A stretch of 64,000 nucleotides of DNA from a beta proteobacterium MWH-UniP1 (lineage in GTDB: Bacteria > Pseudomonadota > Gammaproteobacteria > Burkholderiales > Burkholderiaceae_A). The notes under the pieces were generated by a model that made no database searches, was not told where the DNA came from, and saw only the letters and a program-made list of their open reading frames with translations. The stretch's first letter is position 1, and each line of letters starts with the position of its first letter. Position numbers and translations under genes: made by a program. The stretch covers positions 1,675,401 through 1,739,400 of the forward strand of contig CP143625.1 in assembly GCA_036362785.1 (NCBI GenBank), written 5' to 3'. Positions 53,169 through 63,625 of this stretch are shown piece after piece.

Positions 53169-53438
53169 CTATTTCCTCATCAGTTGACGCAAAATGTCGT
53201 CAGTATCTAAGGGTTTTTGTTGGGCGGGCGCTGACTGTGGCGCAGGGGCCGCTTGACCTGGTGAGGCACCGGGATCTTTAGCAGCGTCTTTCTCGCCAAC
53301 CAATGTTTCACCAACTCGTTTGCGGACTTCGGTAACCGTTTCCTGCGGGGTTGCATCACCCGAATACCATTTCTGTATAGCACCGAAGCCAAGATACAAC
53401 ACAGCCACCACAACGACAACCCCAATCAGCCTGAACAT
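53169..53438 (-). CDS. Small membrane-anchored protein, function unknown
   Basis: An 89-residue protein: one N-terminal hydrophobic segment (LIGVVVVVAVLYLGFGAIQ), then a soluble part with TVTEVRKRVGETLVGEKD, an Ala/Pro/Gln-rich stretch (about residues 57-73) and TDDILRQLMRK. It is the last gene of the nine-gene minus-strand operon, nine bases after the 415-residue gene. Topology suggests an inner-membrane anchor with a periplasmic domain. No family recognised. Confidence 0.7.
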   Translation of the reverse strand: MFRLIGVVVVVAVLYLGFGAIQKWYSGDATPQETVTEVRKRVGETLVGEKDAAKDPGASPGQAAPAPQSAPAQQKPLDTDDILRQLMRK

Positions 53439-53447
53439 GATAATTCC

Positions 53448-54695
53448 TTAATATCGACAAGTTAAAAATACCTCTCTTAACGACTTTAGATCTTTTGTAT
53501 CTACCGCAGGATCCAAACCGATCACCTTGATTTTCTCTTGGCTATCCGTCATTACTGCTTCTGAAAACAAATCGAACATTTTGATGGCGATTTGAACCAT
53601 GTAACGTAGATCGTAATCTTTTAAACGATCAAACATTGCTTTCGGTAGCTCGTTATTTTCAATTAACAATATCTTCTTATCAAACAAAACATTTTTTCTT
53701 TGCGCGTCAGAAACCTTGATAAAAAGTGACATTCCGCGGGCGTATAAGATATTCGCAATGTTAGATCCATTCGATTTTCGGAGCGCGCGATGCACGGTTA
53801 AGTCAATCACATAGTTATTTTCAAGCGGATCATTCAATCTCCCAAAAATCTTGCTAATGTTTGGAAACTTATTGAAACGTGAGGCAAGCGATCCATTCAA
53901 GACATCATTTTGTGCGAAAGGTAGTACTGAAATATCGGCCTTCTCCGCCAATGATGCTGTCAGTGCCTGGCCGAAAAACTGCTCATTGAGCGACTCTGAA
54001 ATTCCCAACTCTTTAATTACGGCCGCCGCTTCTGGAGTAATCGTTACTGAGTTGACCTTTAAGCGTTTCGGTAATCGCGCCTCGCGGAACTTCTTTGTCG
54101 CGACCTTTCGCCCAAAAACATTGACGAGAGAGTTATCTACTTCGAATACGAGTTTTTTAAAGTTTTGCGTCCTATCGGTGTCATTACCGATTTTCGCGAT
54201 TTCCCCCGACTGAACTCGAAAAGGAAAGCTATACAACACCCTTAAATCTCCGTCAGAACCGCCAGATCGAGGCAGATCGAGATAAAGCACTTGTGCGAGA
54301 GCATAGACAAAAGAGAGCTGGAAATCGCCCCCTCCCCCGTCGTTTGGCACCAGAATCATCTGCTCATAATCCAAAGACACCGTAAATATAAGCGCGGGAT
54401 CTGAATTCGCATCCATTAATTTCGCGGGATCTTCCGCTATGCCACCGGAATAGTTTTTTCCAAGCTGGGAGGTCAGTGCGAGAGCGAGCTTCGACTGCCC
54501 ACCACTTGCGTTTAGCGCCTTGGTCAGTATTGGAAAAGCCCGCGATACATCAGTATTAGGCACAGAAAACCCCATGCCACCCCACATAACCTGATCAGCT
54601 CTAGGGGGGCGTCCTGAGGACTGCGCGAATAACCTTAAAGGAATTGCCGAGGTAATAAGCGCCGTGGAAGCAGTTAACACGGTTCGACGTTTCAT
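53448..54695 (-). CDS. Exported protein, function unknown (possible Tat signal)
   Basis: 415 residues with an N-terminal signal MKRRTVLTASTALITSAIPL whose Arg-Arg followed by hydrophobic residues suits the Tat or Sec route, cleaved near LFAQS. The mature part has Gly-rich sequence at about 117-122 (NDGGGGDF) and alternating strands (FQLSFVYALAQVLYLDLPR, LRVLYSFPFRV, YVIDLTVHRALRK). It ends with DTKDLKSLREVFLTCRY. No catalytic motif or known domain was recognised. It is coupled by an eight-base gap to the upstream 443-residue gene, so it probably works with that product outside the cytoplasm. Confidence 0.75.
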   Translation of the reverse strand: MKRRTVLTASTALITSAIPLRLFAQSSGRPPRADQVMWGGMGFSVPNTDVSRAFPILTKALNASGGQSKLALALTSQLGKNYSGGIAEDPAKLMDANSDPALIFTVSLDYEQMILVPNDGGGGDFQLSFVYALAQVLYLDLPRSGGSDGDLRVLYSFPFRVQSGEIAKIGNDTDRTQNFKKLVFEVDNSLVNVFGRKVATKKFREARLPKRLKVNSVTITPEAAAVIKELGISESLNEQFFGQALTASLAEKADISVLPFAQNDVLNGSLASRFNKFPNISKIFGRLNDPLENNYVIDLTVHRALRKSNGSNIANILYARGMSLFIKVSDAQRKNVLFDKKILLIENNELPKAMFDRLKDYDLRYMVQIAIKMFDLFSEAVMTDSQEKIKVIGLDPAVDTKDLKSLREVFLTCRY

Positions 54696-54703
54696 TTAAT
54701 ACC

Positions 54704-56035
54704 TCAGAGATCTTTGGCGAGAGCCGTCGGCGGTAGTTGCGGGGTGGGTACACCGGCCTGCTTCGCGAGCTCTACCTGACGACGTCCAACACTACATGCG
54801 TCCCGGAAGTAACGGTTAATGTGTTCTCCCGATTCCATCGTACCCCCAATATCACCCGAAAAAAACTTTAGGGCAACCTCTACCGTAATCCCTTTTAGGG
54901 AGTTCAGGTTTTCCACCATCTTTTTGTTGGCATCAGCCAATTTGGCCTTCGCTTGATCATCAAGCTGCGGGTTTTTCGCTAGCAAAGATGTCACCTCCGA
55001 TTTGTATGCGGCTGACTGATTGGCAGCAACTTCAATAAGATTGGCTTCGCCAGATCCCTCTTTTTTAAGCATTTCCGCCTTGGCTCGAATTTCTGCCATA
55101 CGGGGGCCTGCCCCTAGAGCCTCAAGCGTCAACTCATCAATTTTTTTACCCTCACTCATCAGCGCGAGAGCTCGCTTATTGGTATCCGAAGATTTCGCTG
55201 CGGCCCGCTGCCTGTCAAAGTCCGCAGTCATTTGCTGACTCTGCTTCAGGAGTCCTAGATATTGATCTCGAGACTGCCAGTTTGGAAGATTGTTAAGCGC
55301 AAAAAAAATCGTCTGATCGGCTAACTTGACTGAATATTGCGAACTCGCACGTCCAATATAATTTGAAAAAGTCGAAATATTCTTTTGAGCGTAATCACCA
55401 AATAAATGATGACGCGCAATCAATGCGATACCCAAACCTGAATTATCCAGGCTGGATTTTCTCAGTATTTCGTGAGCCTTCCCCTTGTCTAAGGCGAGAT
55501 CAGGATATTGCATTAAGAGCATCGCGAGCAAGGTCTGTGCTTCGGTACGCTCAGATGGTTTGTCACCATCACGATAACCGTCTCCAGTCTCTGCATAGGA
55601 AATTACCTGTGCCAACATGGCCACAGAAGGGTTTGCATTGAAGGCCTCAGCCAAATCCCTAACGGTAGTGTCGTGAATGTCCGGAATATGAGCGCGAAGA
55701 TTTACAAAGGAGCCCTGATGGGATTTATTAATACCCTGAAGTAACCTTTGCTCTAAATCTGCACTTAGCTTGAAATATTTTCCTGCGATCACATCTGGTG
55801 CTGCCGAAAGTTTTTTCTCTTTAAAACTTGCCCCTAAAACCTGCTTACACGTGGAGTTAAAAGCATCGCCAGCGTTTGATGCTCCACCTTTTTGCCCAGG
55901 ACTCGCTGCAGCTGGTGATCCACCACCCTGCTGAATTTTCTTTAGCTTATCGTTTAACTTATCTAAGAAAGCGTGTGAAGGCGTTACTCCAACCGTCAAA
56001 AGGGTCGCAATAAACATTAGTCGTGTCTTTTTCAT
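54704..56035 (-). CDS. Exported helical-repeat-like protein, function unknown
   Basis: 443 residues with signal peptide MKKTRLMFIATLLTVGVTPS (cleavage near SHA). A Lys/Gln and Gly/Ala/Ser-rich spacer follows at about residues 24-57 (KLKKIQQGGGSPAAASPG). Mostly helical sequence continues: VRDLAEAFNANPSVAMLAQV, TEAQTLLAMLLMQYPDLALD, GLGIALIARHHLFGDYAQKN. Part of this could be an alpha-solenoid like TPR/Sel1, though no repeat was confirmed. It ends near ALAKDL. Position in the operon links it to the CsgG/LPP20-like genes. Confidence 0.75.
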   Translation of the reverse strand: MKKTRLMFIATLLTVGVTPSHAFLDKLNDKLKKIQQGGGSPAAASPGQKGGASNAGDAFNSTCKQVLGASFKEKKLSAAPDVIAGKYFKLSADLEQRLLQGINKSHQGSFVNLRAHIPDIHDTTVRDLAEAFNANPSVAMLAQVISYAETGDGYRDGDKPSERTEAQTLLAMLLMQYPDLALDKGKAHEILRKSSLDNSGLGIALIARHHLFGDYAQKNISTFSNYIGRASSQYSVKLADQTIFFALNNLPNWQSRDQYLGLLKQSQQMTADFDRQRAAAKSSDTNKRALALMSEGKKIDELTLEALGAGPRMAEIRAKAEMLKKEGSGEANLIEVAANQSAAYKSEVTSLLAKNPQLDDQAKAKLADANKKMVENLNSLKGITVEVALKFFSGDIGGTMESGEHINRYFRDACSVGRRQVELAKQAGVPTPQLPPTALAKDL

Positions 56036-56050
56036 TTTCTCACCAGATAA

Positions 56051-56629
56051 TTAAAGAGTGTCAATATAAATTTTCGGTGCTGCCGAGGGGGGCGCAGACT
56101 TTGGTTCAGCCGGCGGAGTTGAGGCACGCTGTGGAGGTGAAGTGCCTGCCCCACCCTCAATCATCCGCTTGGCTTGCTCCATCACATCACCCGTAGCCGA
56201 TGCCGACTGCGATGCCTCCCAATTAAGATTCGATCGTGATACCCAGACAAGAATAACCGTCTGTGTTCGACATTTTTTTGCTACTGATTGGACTCCATGG
56301 GAAATTAGTGCAGCAGACTCAGAAGGAGGGCTTACTAGTTTCGAGTAGGCTTTAATAAATTCACGATATGCATAAGTTCGAGCCATGGCACTTGCGGCCT
56401 GACCATTTAGACCATCTGCAGATAATTCCTCTACAGAAACCTTGTATGCGTATGTTGCATCGCTTTCTTTTGCGATCTCAGCAAAAGACCCGATCTTTGT
56501 TTTTGCAAAACCGGTGTCATCGCAAATGCGAGATTCGATGGGTTGATTTGAAGCAGCGTTTACAAAGCCCACCCACAAAAAACAAAAGGCGAGTAAACCC
56601 GCCTTTTGCATACCTTGATTAAAAATCAT
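56051..56629 (-). CDS. Exported protein with LPP20-like helix, function unknown
   Basis: 192 residues from ATG 56629 (AAGGG upstream); ATG 56611 would remove six residues. The signal peptide is hydrophobic LLAFCFLWVGFVNAAS. The mature part has ICDDTGFAKTKIGSFAEIAK, AMARTYAYREFIKAYSKLV resembling an LPP20-type Ala-rich helix, and a C-terminal Pro/Ser/Ala-rich tail (about residues 167-185). It overlaps the upstream 220-residue gene by 11 bases. A short, possibly linker-bearing partner of the neighbouring proteins is suggested. Confidence 0.7.
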   Translation of the reverse strand: MIFNQGMQKAGLLAFCFLWVGFVNAASNQPIESRICDDTGFAKTKIGSFAEIAKESDATYAYKVSVEELSADGLNGQAASAMARTYAYREFIKAYSKLVSPPSESAALISHGVQSVAKKCRTQTVILVWVSRSNLNWEASQSASATGDVMEQAKRMIEGGAGTSPPQRASTPPAEPKSAPPSAAPKIYIDTL

Positions 56630-57281
56630 CGGAGCCCTTGCGACGCTGCTCAAAACTCTTCAGATTTTTTTGCTGCAAAGTTTGCCCCTGGGCGGACTGA
56701 GGCTGGGCAGCAGGTGCGGGTGCGCCCGTACCGGGGTTGGCCGACCGTGCTGCGCCTGCCTGCGATTGCGCTGCTGCTGCTTGGCTCTGACAGCTAACTC
56801 CAATTTTTACTGTCACAGTACGCTGTTTTGCATCGACTTGACGACCCAACACCTGCACGCCAGATAACACGGCTTCCGCGCTTGTTTCGTCGATACTCGC
56901 CATCATGCGTTGGGCCTCTGTGCTACCGCTACTCGAACCATCAGCATTGGTCATCATCGTTGATTTACTGGCGTTAGCGATAGCTTCTTTGGCTTTTTGT
57001 TTGGTGGAATAGAACATCGCTAACTGACTTCTTGCTTTATTTGTTGCTTCTTTTGTGGCAAGTTGCACGTCCATTGCAGTATTAGCAAAAATGTTACCCA
57101 CGCCGTAGCACTTGATGCGAGCCTGACAACCATTTTTAGGTGGAGCTAAAGAACATCCTGCAAACCCGCCTAGCGGAACTTCGTCTGCAGCTTGTATTGG
57201 TTCGCCCTCGGATTGGGCATAAACTACTGAGGAGATTCCAGTCAACGCGAGGAATACAGTGGTGATTAGCTTTTTTTTCAT
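56619..57281 (-). CDS. Exported LPP20-like protein, function unknown
   Basis: 220 residues with signal peptide MKKKLITTVFLALTGISSVV cleaved near VYAQS. Cysteines are in GCSLAPPKNGCQARIKCYG (about 42-60). DVQLATKEATNKARSQLAMF fits the LPP20 pattern of a helix with regularly spaced Ala. QVDAKQRTVTVKIGVSCQ resembles the strand end of that fold. The C-terminus is a Gln/Ala/Pro-rich tail ending SFEQRRKGSDDF, a basic then acidic end. It lies 24 bases after the CsgG-like gene. Confidence 0.7.
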   Translation of the reverse strand: MKKKLITTVFLALTGISSVVYAQSEGEPIQAADEVPLGGFAGCSLAPPKNGCQARIKCYGVGNIFANTAMDVQLATKEATNKARSQLAMFYSTKQKAKEAIANASKSTMMTNADGSSSGSTEAQRMMASIDETSAEAVLSGVQVLGRQVDAKQRTVTVKIGVSCQSQAAAAQSQAGAARSANPGTGAPAPAAQPQSAQGQTLQQKNLKSFEQRRKGSDDF

Positions 57282-57305
57282 GATTACCCCTTAAGATTAA
57301 AATTG

Positions 57306-58538
57306 TTAATCGTCATCGTCACTTGTAACAAAAAGTTTTTTAGCTTTTTTGCTTTCGCCTGATCCCGACTCCACGAATACACCAAGCCCGCCAAAGGCGT
57401 CGGCTCCGTTTTCTCCGGTTCGCCATACTTGATAGCTTTGCATGGCCAACAGACGTGGATCAAGTTCAACTTTCCCAGCTAATTTCGCTCGTGAAATTCT
57501 TGCGTCAGCATAAGAGATCACGGCCGTGCCAACATCAGAGTGGTCGTGACTAAGATACTCCCCTGTGTGTGGGTCTCGTAGAGCGGCGCCCATTTTTTTG
57601 ATAACTAGCTTGTCACCTATTGAAAAAAAATCAGACCCCTGCCCGATCGTTATAAAGCCACTGTCTTGACCAAGTACGGTTGGCGGATAAACGGTTTGAA
57701 TAACAGCCCGTGACAATCCTTTACCTAACATTGCGATACGTCTTGCGTTGGAAGTTTCGTCACCGAATTTCAAAGGAACATTTTTCTTTTCAGAAAATTT
57801 GACTTGCCGAGTCGAATAATAGATTACTTCAAGCGTCGCGAAAGCGGACTGCCTACCATCGTTTCTTCCCGCGGTTGTAACTGACACAACCGCAATAAAA
57901 TCCGGTGCAACCTCCGCTGATAAACGGACAGAGTCCTCTAAAGATCCGCTTTTGCGAATGCGAGAAAGCTGGGATTCAACCTGCACCGAATTTCTACGGT
58001 CCATAACAGCGAACTTACGACCGGTAGTCAATTGCTGGGTTACCTCGCTCAAGAGTGCATTGGTATACCTTGGATCCCCTGTGTTTGACGGAACGACAGC
58101 CAGCTTAATTCTTTTTAACTGCTCAGACCGTTTGAGCACAAAAACATCTACTGCAGCAGAGGCCGCATAGTCACCGGCCGGAGATATTTCAGAGGAAATC
58201 TTTGTCCAAGATCTAACAACCCCTTTTGTCTTGCGAGAGATATCTTCCTCGATACTACGACTCATGGATGTCGAGCTATTTGCACCATCTGAACTCGATT
58301 TTGCCGTAGTCGAAATTCTTATCGACGAAGCAACTGCCTCACCATTTACCTGCGCAACACCATTAAAAACGGCATCAGATAGCGCTTCCGCCTCTGTCTT
58401 TCCAAACCCGCTCGCCGTAACGGAGACAACCTGTATTTGCTGCGCAACAGCCGCCAAAGGAATTATTGATAATGCGACTCCCCCAAGAAAGAGGGCACGA
58501 AGACATGCCAAAAAAGTTTTAGGTGGCTGTTTATTCAC
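57306..58538 (-). CDS. FlgT-like/CsgG-like exported protein with acidic tail
   Basis: 410 residues with signal peptide cleaved near AAVAQQ. Three parts are visible. An LPP20-like N-terminal domain has TASGFGKTEAEALSDAVFNG and GVVRSWTKISSEI. A CsgG/TolB-N-like middle domain has IKLAVVPSNTGDPRYTNALL, TTGRKFAVMDRRNSVQVESQ and LSAEVAPDFIAVVSVTTAG. A C-terminal SH3-like domain has SDFFSIGDKLVIKKMGAALR, DPHTGEYLSHDHSDVGTAVI and SRAKLAGKVE. This order matches flagellar protein FlgT, but no flagellar gene is nearby. The last residues, FVTSDDDD, are acidic after Lys-rich sequence. It may be a core of an envelope assembly. Confidence 0.72.
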   Translation of the reverse strand: MNKQPPKTFLACLRALFLGGVALSIIPLAAVAQQIQVVSVTASGFGKTEAEALSDAVFNGVAQVNGEAVASSIRISTTAKSSSDGANSSTSMSRSIEEDISRKTKGVVRSWTKISSEISPAGDYAASAAVDVFVLKRSEQLKRIKLAVVPSNTGDPRYTNALLSEVTQQLTTGRKFAVMDRRNSVQVESQLSRIRKSGSLEDSVRLSAEVAPDFIAVVSVTTAGRNDGRQSAFATLEVIYYSTRQVKFSEKKNVPLKFGDETSNARRIAMLGKGLSRAVIQTVYPPTVLGQDSGFITIGQGSDFFSIGDKLVIKKMGAALRDPHTGEYLSHDHSDVGTAVISYADARISRAKLAGKVELDPRLLAMQSYQVWRTGENGADAFGGLGVFVESGSGESKKAKKLFVTSDDDD

Positions 58539-58552
58539 GTCAATATCTCGAA

Positions 58553-59662
58553 TTAATTGAGGTTTTTCGACCGCAACTGATTCACGATCTGCTGCGCCGC
58601 TTCTTTCGCCGCCTGCTTCAAGGCGTCTGAACGCGCACCATCTTCACGCGGCCCTACGCCGTAGTAGTCAACCGGACCCACAGACGCCACTTTTCGGGGC
58701 AAGCGACGTGAGAGTTCATAAACCTGGATATTTACTGAAGCACGAGCTCTTACACCGCCACTATTTCGGTCTTGTTCGATGCTATCAAAATCAAGCGTGC
58801 CCATTGCAAAAAACTTTTGTTCACATTTACGCATAGCATCAAAAACGAGCTTTCGTACATTATCTGACAATTCAGCGGTTTCAGATGCGAGCAAGTCAGA
58901 GCGCACCTCATTGGTTTTTACACTACCGCATTCTGCTGCCACGTCCGCATAGGCGGACGGTTCGTAACCAGCTTCCGTCAGATACTTTGAGATGTTTGAA
59001 TCAACATCTTTTGCGTCGCCCAGTGCCCACTTAACTTTTTGAGCCTTACGAGTGGTCGATCCAGAGGTCGTCGCTGAGGCTTTCATCGTTACTTTATCCC
59101 CCTGAATTGCGCGCTCAGAAGATCCGCCGTCGGCTTCCTTTAATTGCTCAGCGTCAATTTTTTCATTGACTAAGCTGGTACTTGCGCTGGCCTTTTTGAC
59201 CACTTTTGCATCAAAGCTCTTCGCCTCTGCTTGGATACGCGGAAGAATTAAAAAGCCAAATGCACTACCCTCACCCGACTTAGCACCGCCGGCCGAGAGG
59301 ATAGTGGCGACGAGATTGTCATTCACAACGCCACGCACTGTAAAGCGCATCTTCTTTGCGTTTTTGTCTACTTGCTCGTCTATAAATTCAACATTTGTTA
59401 CGAAATCGTCAATACGTTTTTGAATTTCTTCTTTCTTGGACTCAATTACACGAATCGTTGACGTATCTTGCCTGCCAACGTAACTTTTCCATAGCTCTTG
59501 CTTGGCAGTTGGGGTGATTTTCTTTTTGGTTTCTTCATTAGGTGAGTCAGAAAAAAAACCCGACTCATAGTTAATCTCAAACGTCGTTCGAATGCTCGCC
59601 GCTATCGCAGAAGTCGAGGTTAAAAGTGCAATCATGGCACCTAACCAAAAAGAACGTTTCAT
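58553..59662 (-). CDS. Exported LPP20/FlgT-N-like protein, function unknown
   Basis: 369 residues with signal peptide MKRSFWLGAMIALLTSTSAI (cleavage near AIAAS). It has QELWKSYVGRQDTSTIRVIE, a helix-strand set around FVTNVEFIDEQVDKNAKKMR, FTVRGVVNDNLVATIL, a Ser/Thr/Lys-rich centre (about 160-205), and an LPP20-like C-terminal helix DGARSDALKQAAKEAAQQIV. Start ATG 59662. It lies 25 bases after the M48 gene and 14 before the CsgG-like gene. Its likeness to its downstream neighbour is in general build, not clear identity. Confidence 0.7.
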   Translation of the reverse strand: MKRSFWLGAMIALLTSTSAIAASIRTTFEINYESGFFSDSPNEETKKKITPTAKQELWKSYVGRQDTSTIRVIESKKEEIQKRIDDFVTNVEFIDEQVDKNAKKMRFTVRGVVNDNLVATILSAGGAKSGEGSAFGFLILPRIQAEAKSFDAKVVKKASASTSLVNEKIDAEQLKEADGGSSERAIQGDKVTMKASATTSGSTTRKAQKVKWALGDAKDVDSNISKYLTEAGYEPSAYADVAAECGSVKTNEVRSDLLASETAELSDNVRKLVFDAMRKCEQKFFAMGTLDFDSIEQDRNSGGVRARASVNIQVYELSRRLPRKVASVGPVDYYGVGPREDGARSDALKQAAKEAAQQIVNQLRSKNLN

Positions 59663-59687
59663 ACCAATCTCCTAAACAAAAAATTAT

Positions 59688-60527
59688 TTACCGTACGAAC
59701 TGACGATATCGATTAGCACTTCGACTGGGTATCGCTGCTTTTTCTATCTCTGTATTTACCTGTTTCGCTAGAGCGATTCGACGATTTTCTGCAGAGGGAT
59801 GCGTCGACAACAAAAGTTCGTTTGAGGGTTCTTTTGGCGACAAATTCGCGAGTTTTTCCATTACACGCAGCAAGGCCGAAGAGTCATATCCTGCGCGAGC
59901 CGCGTAAATCATTCCGTCTCGATCAGCCTCATACTCCGCCGATTGATCCAAACCACGCGCAAGAATCTGCCCTACCATCGCCGAGAGTTTGTCTGACATA
60001 CCGGTTGCGTCGTCGGTAATTTTCACGGCTTGGGCACCAAACTCCAACATCCGCTGCTTACGAATAACCCGATAGTGATGCTTACGTACAACGTGAGCGA
60101 CCTCATGAGCGAGAACCGCAGCAAGCTCATCCTCAGACTCGAGCAATTGCATGAGTTGGCTTGTAATTAAAATCTGCCCACCCGGCGCCGCAAATGCATT
60201 GACCGCGGTCGAATCCACCACGCCAAAAGACCATGAAAGATCTCGTCGCTCGGATTGATCAGCCACGCGACGACCCACTAAATTGACGTATTTCTGAATT
60301 TTTGAATCCGGCAGCAACTTGGCGGCACCAAGAATCTGACCTGCTACTAAGCGCCCCGTAGCCAACTCTTCCTGAAGGCTCTCGGGATCCATTTTTAATG
60401 CAGCGCCACCGATGTCAAGATTGATCGATTGGGCCTTCGCGACCCCACCCACGACGAAACACCAAGTGACTATCGCCGTACACAACCAGAGCTTTAGGGG
60501 GCTCATCAAGAATTTAATCGTCGTCAT
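59688..60527 (-). CDS. M48-family zinc metalloprotease, exported
   Basis: Peptidase of the M48 (Ste24/BepA-like) family. The zinc motif is HEVAHVVRKHH in LAAVLAHEVAHVVRKHH (about residues 138-154), with third ligand Glu in EYEADRDGM. FAAPGGQILITSQLMQLLES is conserved in soluble M48 proteases. The protein is about 280 residues from ATG 60527; ATG 60506 is also possible. A signal sequence follows (LWLCTAIVTWCFVVGG to AKAQ). Like BepA, it may act in outer-membrane or periplasmic protein quality control. It overlaps the upstream SH3 gene by 14 bases. Confidence 0.88.
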   Translation of the reverse strand: MTTIKFLMSPLKLWLCTAIVTWCFVVGGVAKAQSINLDIGGAALKMDPESLQEELATGRLVAGQILGAAKLLPDSKIQKYVNLVGRRVADQSERRDLSWSFGVVDSTAVNAFAAPGGQILITSQLMQLLESEDELAAVLAHEVAHVVRKHHYRVIRKQRMLEFGAQAVKITDDATGMSDKLSAMVGQILARGLDQSAEYEADRDGMIYAARAGYDSSALLRVMEKLANLSPKEPSNELLLSTHPSAENRRIALAKQVNTEIEKAAIPSRSANRYRQFVR

Positions 60528-61122
60528 CATCTCCATCACCAGATTTTTTTCTGTCCGCGGACCTCTTAGGAGACCCCTGCGAAGCCTTTCCGTCTCGACT
60601 TGTCGGCCCAAAAGTCGGCCTTCCTTTTACACCCTGCGGGGGAGCCGCCAGGAGCGCTAATTTGCGATTTTGAAGCCCGCCTTGAGTTGCGAAATCGTCC
60701 GCAGCGCTCGCAGAAACCCCCAATTTTTTTAATTCTTCGACTTGTAAGTGATCAGGTTTCGAGGCGATCACATCTTTTGAGGAAAGCCCGCGAGCCGCCG
60801 ATGTAGAAACAATATTTCCCTTGCCAGATCTCCCGCTGTCTAAGTTCGAAAGGCCACCACCAGCCCCCTTCGGCGTAGAAACTTCTGATGCTTTTAGCCA
60901 GCCTTTTGCTCCACCAGATTCCACTTCTAAGTAGAAACCCTGCCGTCTTAAAACTTTAACGGGAGCGTTTGCCGGTAACTGCTTAAGTGCTTTCGAATCT
61001 GCTGTGGGCTCAGCCCTCAAAGGCGCAGGGACGGCGAGTTCCTGGGCAAGACCAATCCCTGCGGAACACACCAAAAAGATGCATAAAAGGCAACTTTTAA
61101 ATGGTACGGAGCTAAAAAACAC
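60514..61122 (-). CDS. Exported SH3-domain protein with poly-Asp tail
   Basis: 202 residues from a GTG start at 61122 (GGGGATCC upstream), signal peptide cleaved near GLAQE. One bacterial SH3 (SH3_3-like) domain at about residues 32-82 has PLRAEPTADSKALKQLPANA, VKVLRRQGFYLEVESG and GWLKASEV. A Gly/Ser-rich middle and QVEELKKLGVSASAADDFAT follow, then a Lys/Arg-rich end closing in KKSGDGDDDDD. SH3_3 domains often contact cell-wall peptides. It is the first gene of the operon, so its promoter governs all nine. Confidence 0.78.
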   Translation of the reverse strand: MFFSSVPFKSCLLCIFLVCSAGIGLAQELAVPAPLRAEPTADSKALKQLPANAPVKVLRRQGFYLEVESGGAKGWLKASEVSTPKGAGGGLSNLDSGRSGKGNIVSTSAARGLSSKDVIASKPDHLQVEELKKLGVSASAADDFATQGGLQNRKLALLAAPPQGVKGRPTFGPTSRDGKASQGSPKRSADRKKSGDGDDDDD

Positions 61123-61270: not shown

Positions 61271-61858
61271 ATGCCCGAGACAAATGACACCGCATCCCAA
61301 GCTGACCAATTCGAGAAAAGAATTTCGATCACGATCTCTGGAGTCGCTGTTTTGCTTTTACTGAACTCGATGGGCGCCGGAAATGCAAGTTCCGAGGCGG
61401 CCTTTCAAAATACTGTCGCAATCAACACATACGCGTTTTATCAAGCGAAAACAATTCGACAAAACGACCTTGAACTAGCCGCCAACGCGCTAGACACTAT
61501 TGTTGATACAGCCGTTCCGGCGATCAACTCCGAAACAAAAAAGAAAGCAAAAGAAATTGCGGTAGGTTATCGCGCCAAAGCCTCGAGTTATGACAGTGAT
61601 CCAACCACCAGCGAGGGCAAAAAGGAATTGCTCGAGAAAGCGCGTAACGCGGAACAGCAACGCGATTCAGCGATGGAGAAAGGACCTTACTTTGACTTGG
61701 CAAGTCTGTTGCTGCAGCTAGCAGTGATTCTTTTTTCGGTCGTGCTACTTACCAAGAAAAAAACCCTATTGCTCGCCGCTTCAGCTACGGCCGTGACTGG
61801 GGGATTTTTCACACTCAACGCTTTTTTTATGCTTATCAAAATCCCGGGGCTTGGATAA
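61271..61858 (+). CDS. DUF4337-like membrane protein
   Basis: 195 residues with a short soluble start, hydrophobic ITISGVAVLLLLNSMGAGNA (about 22-41), a helical middle (NTYAFYQAKTIRQNDLELAA and EGKKELLEKARNAEQQRDSA), and two hydrophobic segments near the end (LASLLLQLAVILFSVVLLTK, LLLAASATAVTGGFFTLNAF). The layout of N-terminal TM, NTYAFYQAKTIRQ and two C-terminal TMs fits the DUF4337 family of unknown function. It is followed by the CHASE2 gene 39 bases on. Confidence 0.78.
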   Translation: MPETNDTASQADQFEKRISITISGVAVLLLLNSMGAGNASSEAAFQNTVAINTYAFYQAKTIRQNDLELAANALDTIVDTAVPAINSETKKKAKEIAVGYRAKASSYDSDPTTSEGKKELLEKARNAEQQRDSAMEKGPYFDLASLLLQLAVILFSVVLLTKKKTLLLAASATAVTGGFFTLNAFFMLIKIPGLG

Positions 61859-61897
61859 CAGAGCGAACAACGCATCTCACGACCCGGAGGAGACTAA

Positions 61898-63625
61898 TTG
61901 GACAAATTGTTTGAGATTTTCTTTGACTGGTTTCAGGAATTCTCAAAACGATACCTGCCAGCCATCTACAGATGGATCGAAGCAGGATTTCATTTTAGAG
62001 ATCGAGCCACCACAGCAACGGCAAGGCTCCTAAGGACCTCGGGAGATCGCGGCATTTTACTCGTTGCGATTCTTACCTCGGCGTATGCGCTTTATCTCTA
62101 TGGCGTGGACGTCTACAAGCCAAATACGCCCAAGCCATCTCATGACACTATCTTAAAAGCAAGATTCTCTAGCCCAGTACCTTCTGCCAATATTGTTATT
62201 CTGGATGTCGACGAACGATCAATCGCCAATATGGCAGATCAATATGGGCGATGGCCATGGCGCAGAGATGTCTTGGCTGACGGTCTTCAAAAACTTTCGG
62301 AATACGGCACAAAAGGGATTCTATTTAACGTCCTTCTGTCAGAGCCTGACAAACAAAATCCAGCTGCCGATCGGCTAATGAATGTCGCTGCCGACACAGT
62401 TAAAACGAGTGCTTATCCAGTTATCCGACTAGCACAGCAAAACGATGGCCTCAGCCAATTAAAAGTCAGCAGTCTTCCGGGGACTATTGTCGAGCCGAAA
62501 GCAGAAGATAACACCATCGCAGTCATCGTCCCCCTTTTCCCTGGAATGCACGAACGACTCGGCATCGCTAATCAGCAACCAGATAGTGATGGAATCGTCC
62601 GTAGGTATCCTTTTTATTGGGCCGAACCCGGTTTTAAATTGCCCTCAATTGTTGCCACTACATTGTTTGTCTCTGATTTGTCACCCAGCAAAGATTTGCC
62701 AGATAGCTTTTCTTTAAACTGGCGTAACAAAAAGGGAACGTATCAACGCATATCCTTCAGCGACCTATTTTTAGATCAATTATCCGAGCAAGACAAAAAA
62801 TCGCTAAAGAACGCTTTAGTTGTTGTGGGTGTATCTGCCCCCGGGATTGGGCAGACAAAACCGACTGGAGTAAAAGCAACTACAGACGACAGTGAAATCA
62901 TTGCAACAGCCATTGATGATGCACTTCATGATACTCACCTACGAATCACGCCCGCTTGGGTATTGTTAGTCTTGAATTTAGTATCTATCTGGTCGCTTTA
63001 TTTGGTGTTCTCCGTCAAGACTGCCAAGAATCCACCGCTAAATAAAATTTTTGTCGTACTGCAGACCGCACTTGGCGGGCTAACTATGCTATCTGCAAGC
63101 TATACAAGTTATCTTGTTGACCTTACTGATAGCATGAAATTTGCCCTTGGAGTTTTTGCTGCGATAAAACTTGCTCAATCTCTTGATGATCGTTGGTCGC
63201 GCGGACGCAAAGGGTATCGTCGCCTAAGGTCTGGCTTAGCTGGACAGACAATTTTAATTATTAGTTACTTTGATAACTCCATAGTCGATGCAAATGAATC
63301 TGAGCTTCAGCGAGAGATTGAGAAAATCGTCGGTGTCGATCGTGTAGTCCGCATTGATGATTTATTTAGTGGCGAGAGTTTCGTTAAAAATTTTCTTTCT
63401 GGTTGTCACGGCCTCGTCATTTGTGTGTCCTCCATTCCTTTGAAATTGCAGGTAATCCAGACAATAAAAAGCTTCAAGATTGACCCCGTTAGCGTGCGCG
63501 AGTGCCCCATGACACACACATGGGATCTTGAAGACAAGAACTTCGCCAAAGCTATCAGTCCGGCTCTCTTGGCTAATATAGGCGGCCTGCTTGGTCCGGC
63601 CGACGGCAAACCCGTAAATTTATAG
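61898..63625 (+). CDS. CHASE2-domain membrane protein with unassigned C-terminal domain
   Basis: 575 residues from TTG 61898 (GGAGGAG about nine bases upstream). One membrane segment (about 52-70) precedes an extracytoplasmic CHASE2 sensor at about residues 80-340: VILDVDERSIANMADQYGRW, PWRRDVLADGLQKLSEYG, ILFNVLLSEPDKQNPAADR. Three further membrane segments follow (about 349-372, 382-407, 413-428). The cytoplasmic end (about 445-575) has QTILIISYFDNSIVDANESE and LVICVSSIPLKLQVIQTIKS, with no kinase, cyclase or GGDEF motif. The output is therefore unknown. Confidence 0.85.
   Translation: MDKLFEIFFDWFQEFSKRYLPAIYRWIEAGFHFRDRATTATARLLRTSGDRGILLVAILTSAYALYLYGVDVYKPNTPKPSHDTILKARFSSPVPSANIVILDVDERSIANMADQYGRWPWRRDVLADGLQKLSEYGTKGILFNVLLSEPDKQNPAADRLMNVAADTVKTSAYPVIRLAQQNDGLSQLKVSSLPGTIVEPKAEDNTIAVIVPLFPGMHERLGIANQQPDSDGIVRRYPFYWAEPGFKLPSIVATTLFVSDLSPSKDLPDSFSLNWRNKKGTYQRISFSDLFLDQLSEQDKKSLKNALVVVGVSAPGIGQTKPTGVKATTDDSEIIATAIDDALHDTHLRITPAWVLLVLNLVSIWSLYLVFSVKTAKNPPLNKIFVVLQTALGGLTMLSASYTSYLVDLTDSMKFALGVFAAIKLAQSLDDRWSRGRKGYRRLRSGLAGQTILIISYFDNSIVDANESELQREIEKIVGVDRVVRIDDLFSGESFVKNFLSGCHGLVICVSSIPLKLQVIQTIKSFKIDPVSVRECPMTHTWDLEDKNFAKAISPALLANIGGLLGPADGKPVNL

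Follow-up and report, generated by a model that had tools for sequence, protein, structure and literature searches.

A conserved, patchily distributed operon with two predicted FlgT-like exported proteins in a beta proteobacterium lacking the P ring and secretin: a candidate non-flagellar periplasmic scaffold

The 64,000-nucleotide stretch analysed here (hereafter the window), taken from the genome of the beta proteobacterium MWH-UniP1 (contig CP143625.1, positions 1,675,401 to 1,739,400; one contig, 2.05 Mb, 99.8% complete), carries an operon of nine open reading frames (ORFs) for exported proteins, all on the minus strand and running from 61122 to 53169, which are named g9 to g1 in transcription order. 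Two of the products, g6 and g7, are predicted to be FlgT-like, and their genes belong to a set that recurs in unrelated bacteria, while the genome itself lacks the partners with which FlgT-type proteins are known. The close packing had been given in a preliminary description of this DNA, made from the letters alone, as nine same-strand genes that overlap or lie at most 25 bases apart, and the ORF list confirmed it: g9 and g8 overlap, the next spacings are 25, 14 and 24 bases, g5 and g4 overlap or lie about 7 bases apart depending on the start chosen, and the last spacings are 15, 8 and 9 bases. A hydrophobic signal-like or anchor-like N-terminus, earlier ascribed to eight of the proteins, was seen by eye in all nine, provided that g8 starts at an internal ATG. 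Pfam cut-offs were passed by g8 and g9 only. The operon is enclosed in a low-G+C (guanine plus cytosine) stretch of about 12 kb (~53.0-64.8 kb, at 0.43-0.52), the genome being at ~0.55. The genes, with the core of the system first, are as follows.

g6, 57306..58538, minus strand: exported FlgT-like protein of 410 amino acids (aa) with the tail SDDDD; core; characterised by AlphaFold, Foldseek and profiles.
g7, 58553..59662, minus strand: exported protein of 369 aa, FlgT_N-like and FlgT_M/TolB-N-like, without the SH3 end; core; characterised by AlphaFold and Foldseek.
g2, 53448..54695, minus strand: exported protein of 415 aa with the twin-arginine-like start KRRTVL; core; relatives at 13 loci and in genome G1080.
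g3, 54704..56035, minus strand: helical exported protein of 443 aa with an amphipathic, then Gly-rich start; core; relatives at loci L045, L072 and L040.
g5, 56619..57281, minus strand: exported protein of 220 aa with the tail GSDDF, a short relative of the DUF6844 family by iterative profile.
g4, 56051..56611, minus strand: small exported protein; the start is probably ATG 56611, the ORF opening at TTG 56653.
g1, 53169..53438, minus strand: single-helix anchored protein of 89 aa with a Pro/Ala-rich tail.
g8, 59688..60611, minus strand: M48 metalloprotease (Pfam, 3.4e-31) whose catalytic part is BepA-like but which is shorter than BepA; accessory.
g9, 60514..61122, minus strand: exported SH3_3 protein of 202 aa (Pfam, 6.3e-8) ending in GDGDDDDD; accessory.

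The AlphaFold model of g6 (predicted local distance difference test, pLDDT, 71.6) has FlgT as its top Foldseek match in the PDB (3W1E, E 6.5e-14, 410 columns) at ~11% identity, followed by a chain of the Vibrio LPHT ring and then by CsgG, TolB, GNA1162 and PelC, among which CsgG and the PelC dodecamer are ring formers. The layout comprises an N-terminal domain (residues ~35-135), a CsgG/TolB-N-like domain (~144-292), a FlgT_C/TsaP-type SH3 domain (~295-375) and the acidic tail. The domain order LPP20-like, CsgG/TolB-N-like and SH3-like, proposed earlier for this protein, was thus borne out by the FlgT match and, for the CsgG and TsaP parts, by profiles; the preliminary description had let its reading hang on this structure prediction, and FlgT-like folds are present in it. 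In the family of 21 sequences from which the g6 profile was built, 16 members matched Pfam CsgG (E <= 0.01) and 10 matched LpoB; the profile itself reached CsgG with its middle domain (5e-4) and the TsaP-type proteins with its C-terminal domain (6ve2_O, 3.6e-8; M. xanthus TsaP, 1.2e-5). For the window g6 the CsgG domain is seen by the model and the family profile only, and its Pfam LpoB score of 15.1 bits lies below the curated cut-off of 22.3. Weak matches of the g6 profile across 399 genomes of the order fell into two classes, of each of which a few examples were checked: LysM proteins of the TsaP type, matching in the C-terminal domain only, and CsgG lipoproteins, matching in the middle only.

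The g7 model (pLDDT 72.8) has as its top Foldseek match chain 0 of the Vibrio LPHT ring (8z5n, E 1.3e-5), the same chain that is the second match of g6. Because the g7 model matches this chain first, the operon is predicted to encode two FlgT-like proteins. Relatives of g7 were found at 13 loci. Comparison of the g7 and g6 profiles gave a weak signal in the N domain (prob 48%), and no signal was obtained for g5/g6, g2/g6 or g7/g5. The suggestion that three further proteins carry LPP20-type helices held in part: g7 proved FlgT-like, g4 gave nothing, and the g5 family matched LPP20 at chance level only (E 0.16). A g7 relative in G1080 (L072:4890-6347, 485 aa) has an apparently duplicated N-terminal domain, and the G1080 cassette g7-g6-g3-g2 sits directly ahead of trpD/trpC-like genes.

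The two large proteins g2 and g3 had been proposed as cargo or scaffold; neither of them is obviously cargo, g2 being a widely kept core protein and g3 an enlarged form of a core helical one. Twin-arginine-like starts, which would mean export of g2 in folded form, were noted by eye in several carriers (KRRTVL, SRREFL, DRRKFL) and ordinary signal peptides in others (L045, L040, L037 and L072 were inspected). A relationship of g2 to FlgI, the P-ring protein, was considered and rejected: PDB profile matches had E 0.09 and then 0.014, and the profile-profile comparison with FlgI of the carrier genomes (13 rows, two of them wrong-strand ORFs) gave a prob of 0.2%, so that the likeness was treated as a short chance motif. 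The C-terminal ~136 residues of g3 match the small protein x of a four-gene version of the system, version A (hhalign E 6.1e-5, prob 65%). Therefore, g3 would be an enlarged form of the core helical protein x, and the window probably has counterparts of all four version-A genes. At L064:12395-13723 (Burkholderia sp. L27) a g1-like anchor lies in frame with g2, a possible g1-g2 fusion.

Version A, with the order g2-g7-x-g6, occurs in Cupriavidus metallidurans CH34 (L005) and at loci L036-L039, L043, L044 and L057-L059. Version B combines a lipoprotein that we take to be COG3014-like with YcfL, LpoB, DUF6844 and a g6-like protein, and is found, with variations, in Azospirillum TSH100 (L004) and at L041, L042, L054-L056, L060 and L061. 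Version C comprises mixtures: the window, L045 (g7-g6-g5-g4?-g3-g2-g1), L040, L072 (g7-g6-g3-g2), Caballeronia SBC2, Burkholderia 8Y and Burkholderia L27 (each g6-g5-g4-g2-g7-x), and a fragment from a Sterolibacterium metagenome-assembled genome (g6-g5-g4-g1). Thus, g2, g7 and g6 together with g3 or x recur jointly, with a scattered distribution across Burkholderiales and further Gammaproteobacteria, and form the core, g5, g4 and g1 are frequent additions, and the M48 and SH3 genes are local. The genes g2, g7 and g6 are neighbours at 15 loci of varied families, and a search of 369 genomes started from g2 gave two other carriers, in each of which g6 and g7 adjoin it. The three proteins diverge in step (Mantel 0.96, 0.77 and 0.81; 0/5000 permutations each), values to which kinship between the organisms also contributes wherever the genes are inherited vertically, although the presence of the system is patchy: two of the 26 genomes of the family and, counting strong scores, ~2.5% of the order, several copies sitting on plasmids or chromids. 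Of the nine genes expected to stay together, the core genes do so in unrelated genomes and the M48 and SH3 genes do not. Among the version-A copies, two carrier groups (L043:8567-10264 and L058:8677-10323) have a Ser/Ala/Gly-rich insert of 60-75 residues in the N domain of g6, and two version-B loci (L041:8228-10410 and L042:8533-10681), in genomes that have neither P ring nor secretin, have two adjacent g6-type proteins of ~300 and 415 aa.

Known proteins with FlgT-type folds are accessories of flagella or, via the C-terminal domain, of pilus secretins. The FlgI P ring is absent from the single-contig genome of MWH-UniP1, the same search being positive in 14 of the 19 carriers and in three control genomes; a secretin (PF00263) and CsgF were likewise not found in this genome. 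Among the 19 carriers, P ring and secretin are both missing in G000 (the genome of the window), G265, G132 and G089, and the P ring only is missing in G276; G265, G132 and G089 are 98-100% complete, and draft genomes may miss genes. Since both partners are absent in carriers, the system cannot depend on an LP ring, as in the role of FlgT, or on a secretin, as in that of TsaP, and, as judged from gene content, the roles of FlgT, TsaP and CsgG with their usual partners are excluded in this genome. The setting outside any flagellar or curli context, already stated in the preliminary description, agrees with these absences. That a conserved, patchy gene set encodes two FlgT-like proteins where P ring and secretin are both missing means that the fold serves something else.

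The C-termini offer a further regularity. All the g5/DUF6844 proteins seen have an acidic end with F or W (SDDF, ADDF, ADEF, LDVF, DDDF, FGEW etc.), and all version-A g6 proteins end in D..W (DDNW, DDKW, SDANW, SDDEW) after linkers that differ in length; among the mixed-version g6 proteins some end in ESDY or DSDW, and the window g6 in SDDDD. Such acidic-aromatic ends were present in only 4/207 other ORFs of the loci, counts that include related, non-independent sequences, and the simplest reading would be a C-terminal docking tag. The g5 protein itself has no Pfam DUF6844 match over the cut-off and is joined to this family only by the iterative profile, the family profile matching 4QVR (Francisella FTT_1539c) at 2e-55. 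Relatives of g4 adjoin g5 at L003, L062, L064 and L065 and, weakly, at L045; those of g1 were found at L045 and L062 and, weakly, at L040 and L064.

The M48 protease and the SH3 protein, whose presence in the operon had been noted earlier, were rejected as core parts because they are absent beside every other copy: at the loci surveyed, such genes lie near the system in the window only. The roles proposed for them, built-in quality control for M48 and a component of the system for SH3, were not upheld, and three further M48 genes lie elsewhere in the genome. The true start of g8 is probably an internal ATG near 60531, and its score against NCBIfam BepA is 111 bits (cut-off 570). The last codons of g9 overlap the start region of g8, and this overlap of its Asp codons weakened the poly-Asp tail common to g9 and g6 as a sign that g9 belongs to the system. 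Beside the operon, at 61271-63625 and within the same low-G+C stretch, lie a divergent gene for a DUF4337 membrane protein and a CHASE2 gene, neither of which was seen beside other copies of the system. The signal-peptide codons of g4, just past the stop of g5, include a stem of 12 bp closed by a loop of 4 bases, with TTTTTT after it (56582-56609, minus strand); the element resembles a terminator or attenuator, which could divide the operon, and has no obvious equivalent in the relatives. A phage origin was rejected, no match being found in phage records, as was island integration at a transfer RNA (tRNA), since neither the window nor the ~27 kb after it has a tRNA; no integrase was recognised by eye among the ORFs of the same span.

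The reading that we put forward, with about even chances of being right, is that the products build a non-flagellar ring or scaffold in the periplasm, linked to the outer membrane; it would work in the way of the FlgT H ring, with no flagellum, secretin or curli pore involved. By analogy, g6 (N-M-C) and g7 (N-M) may oligomerise via their LPP20-like and TolB-N/CsgG-like domains into stacked periplasmic rings, with the SH3 domain of g6 touching another component. Constant partners would be g2 and g3/x; the amphipathic helix with which g3 and its short form x begin could touch a membrane, and g5 may be a partner as well; the acidic, aromatic-ended tails of the g5 and g6 homologues would dock a common partner. 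The client may be an envelope-spanning assembly, the junction of peptidoglycan and outer membrane, or an exported molecule. Attachment to the outer membrane is suggested by the lipoprotein-like signals on most version-A g6 proteins together with the Francisella relatives present in outer-membrane vesicles (PMC10963506, PMC6795709).

Several points weigh against this scaffold. The models superpose on FlgT with template modelling (TM) scores of only ~0.22-0.30 and a large root-mean-square deviation, so that the matches hold domain by domain and the claim is limited to the same domains in the same order; the confidence of the g6 and g7 models is moderate (pLDDT ~72-73, predicted TM-score 0.50-0.52). 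Some proteins with TolB-N/CsgG-like domains, such as TolB and LpoB, are not ring formers, and ring formation by g6 and g7 is a prediction by analogy. No Pfam match and no recognised fold were obtained for g2. The window g6 has no lipobox in its signal peptide, several homologues having one; it is not a lipoprotein, and its tie to the outer membrane is indirect at best.

A bolder extension, which we hold only tentatively, is a cassette passing from species to species for an envelope machine not previously described, in which the two FlgT-like proteins would form stacked rings and the acidic C-terminal aromatic tag would be read by a common partner. No paper on this gene combination was found among open-licence papers; the system is new as a system and built of known folds.

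An envelope-maintenance module, in which the FlgT-like folds would be adaptors rather than rings and would serve peptidoglycan growth or the link of peptidoglycan to the outer membrane in the manner of LpoB and TolB, is unlikely but the strongest of the rivals. The LpoB matches in 10 of the 21 family members, TolB among the Foldseek matches and the true LpoB and YcfL of the sister operon, version B, speak for it, and the SH3 and M48 proteins of the window would fit cell-wall binding and envelope proteolysis; however, these two are not conserved with the system, the window operon has no true LpoB, and the patchy presence in the family speaks against housekeeping. Less probable still is a secretion or export channel of the CsgG/PelC type, with g6 and perhaps g7 forming its periplasmic or outer-membrane vestibule, through which a protein or polysaccharide would be exported. 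The CsgG domain in 16 of the 21 family members, CsgG and PelC among the structural matches and the lipoprotein-like character of most version-A g6 proteins, as in CsgG, are consistent with it. Compared at the CsgG hairpin positions, however, the window g6 lacks the ~15-20 residues aligned to the first membrane hairpin, the profile match stops before the second, and the model has a soluble sheet only; because the first-hairpin segment is missing and no second hairpin is seen, pore formation by the window g6 appears unlikely. Nor is CsgF encoded in the genome, or any barrel protein or exopolysaccharide gene found in the operon or recurrently beside the system. Of the ring or secretion apparatus first proposed, the FlgT/CsgG-like core kept together stands and the pore is unlikely, a structural scaffold being favoured. 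That these genes are what remains, in decayed or repurposed form, of an operon of flagellar or pilus accessories (FlgT/FlgO/FlgP or TsaP) is, in spite of the FlgT architecture and the TsaP-type C-terminal domain, very improbable and largely refuted by the lack of P ring and secretin in this genome, G265, G132 and G089, by intact genes conserved as an independent unit even in genomes with flagella, and by the ~11% identity to FlgT.

Among known systems, the CsgG curli channel with its LpoB, TolB-N, PelC and GNA1162 relatives shares with g6 the middle domain, from which it differs in that the window g6 has no lipobox and, by alignment and model, no membrane hairpins, in a genome without CsgF. 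TsaP, associated with the type IV pilus secretin, shares the SH3-like C-terminal domain; by Pfam g6 has none of the LysM present in the TsaP-like comparison proteins, and the genome has no secretin. The version-B operon of Azospirillum TSH100 also pairs a FlgT-like protein with a DUF6844 relative having an acidic aromatic tail, but is without g2, g7 and g3, and its LpoB, YcfL and lipoprotein are not in the window operon. The DUF6844-family member FTT_1539c lies in the Francisella operon FTT1537c-1540c; an insertion in FTT1538c of the same four-gene operon caused slight attenuation, with polar effects possible (PMC4696196), which says little on the mechanism. Through this family a small gene set connects unannotated proteins of Cupriavidus, Burkholderia and Azospirillum with those of Francisella. 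The closest likeness in domain order is to FlgT of the Vibrio H ring (FlgT, FlgO, FlgP; PMC6504787): all three FlgT domains occur in g6, with their order unchanged, and the first two in g7, and both proteins are exported and encoded beside further exported proteins. Unlike the H ring, the system has two FlgT-like proteins, at ~11% identity for g6, and no FlgO or FlgP relative identified in the operon, g2 and g3 have no flagellar counterpart, and the genome has no P ring. If the bolder cassette reading is right, a single ring-building fold would have been put to separate uses in FlgT, in TsaP and in this system.

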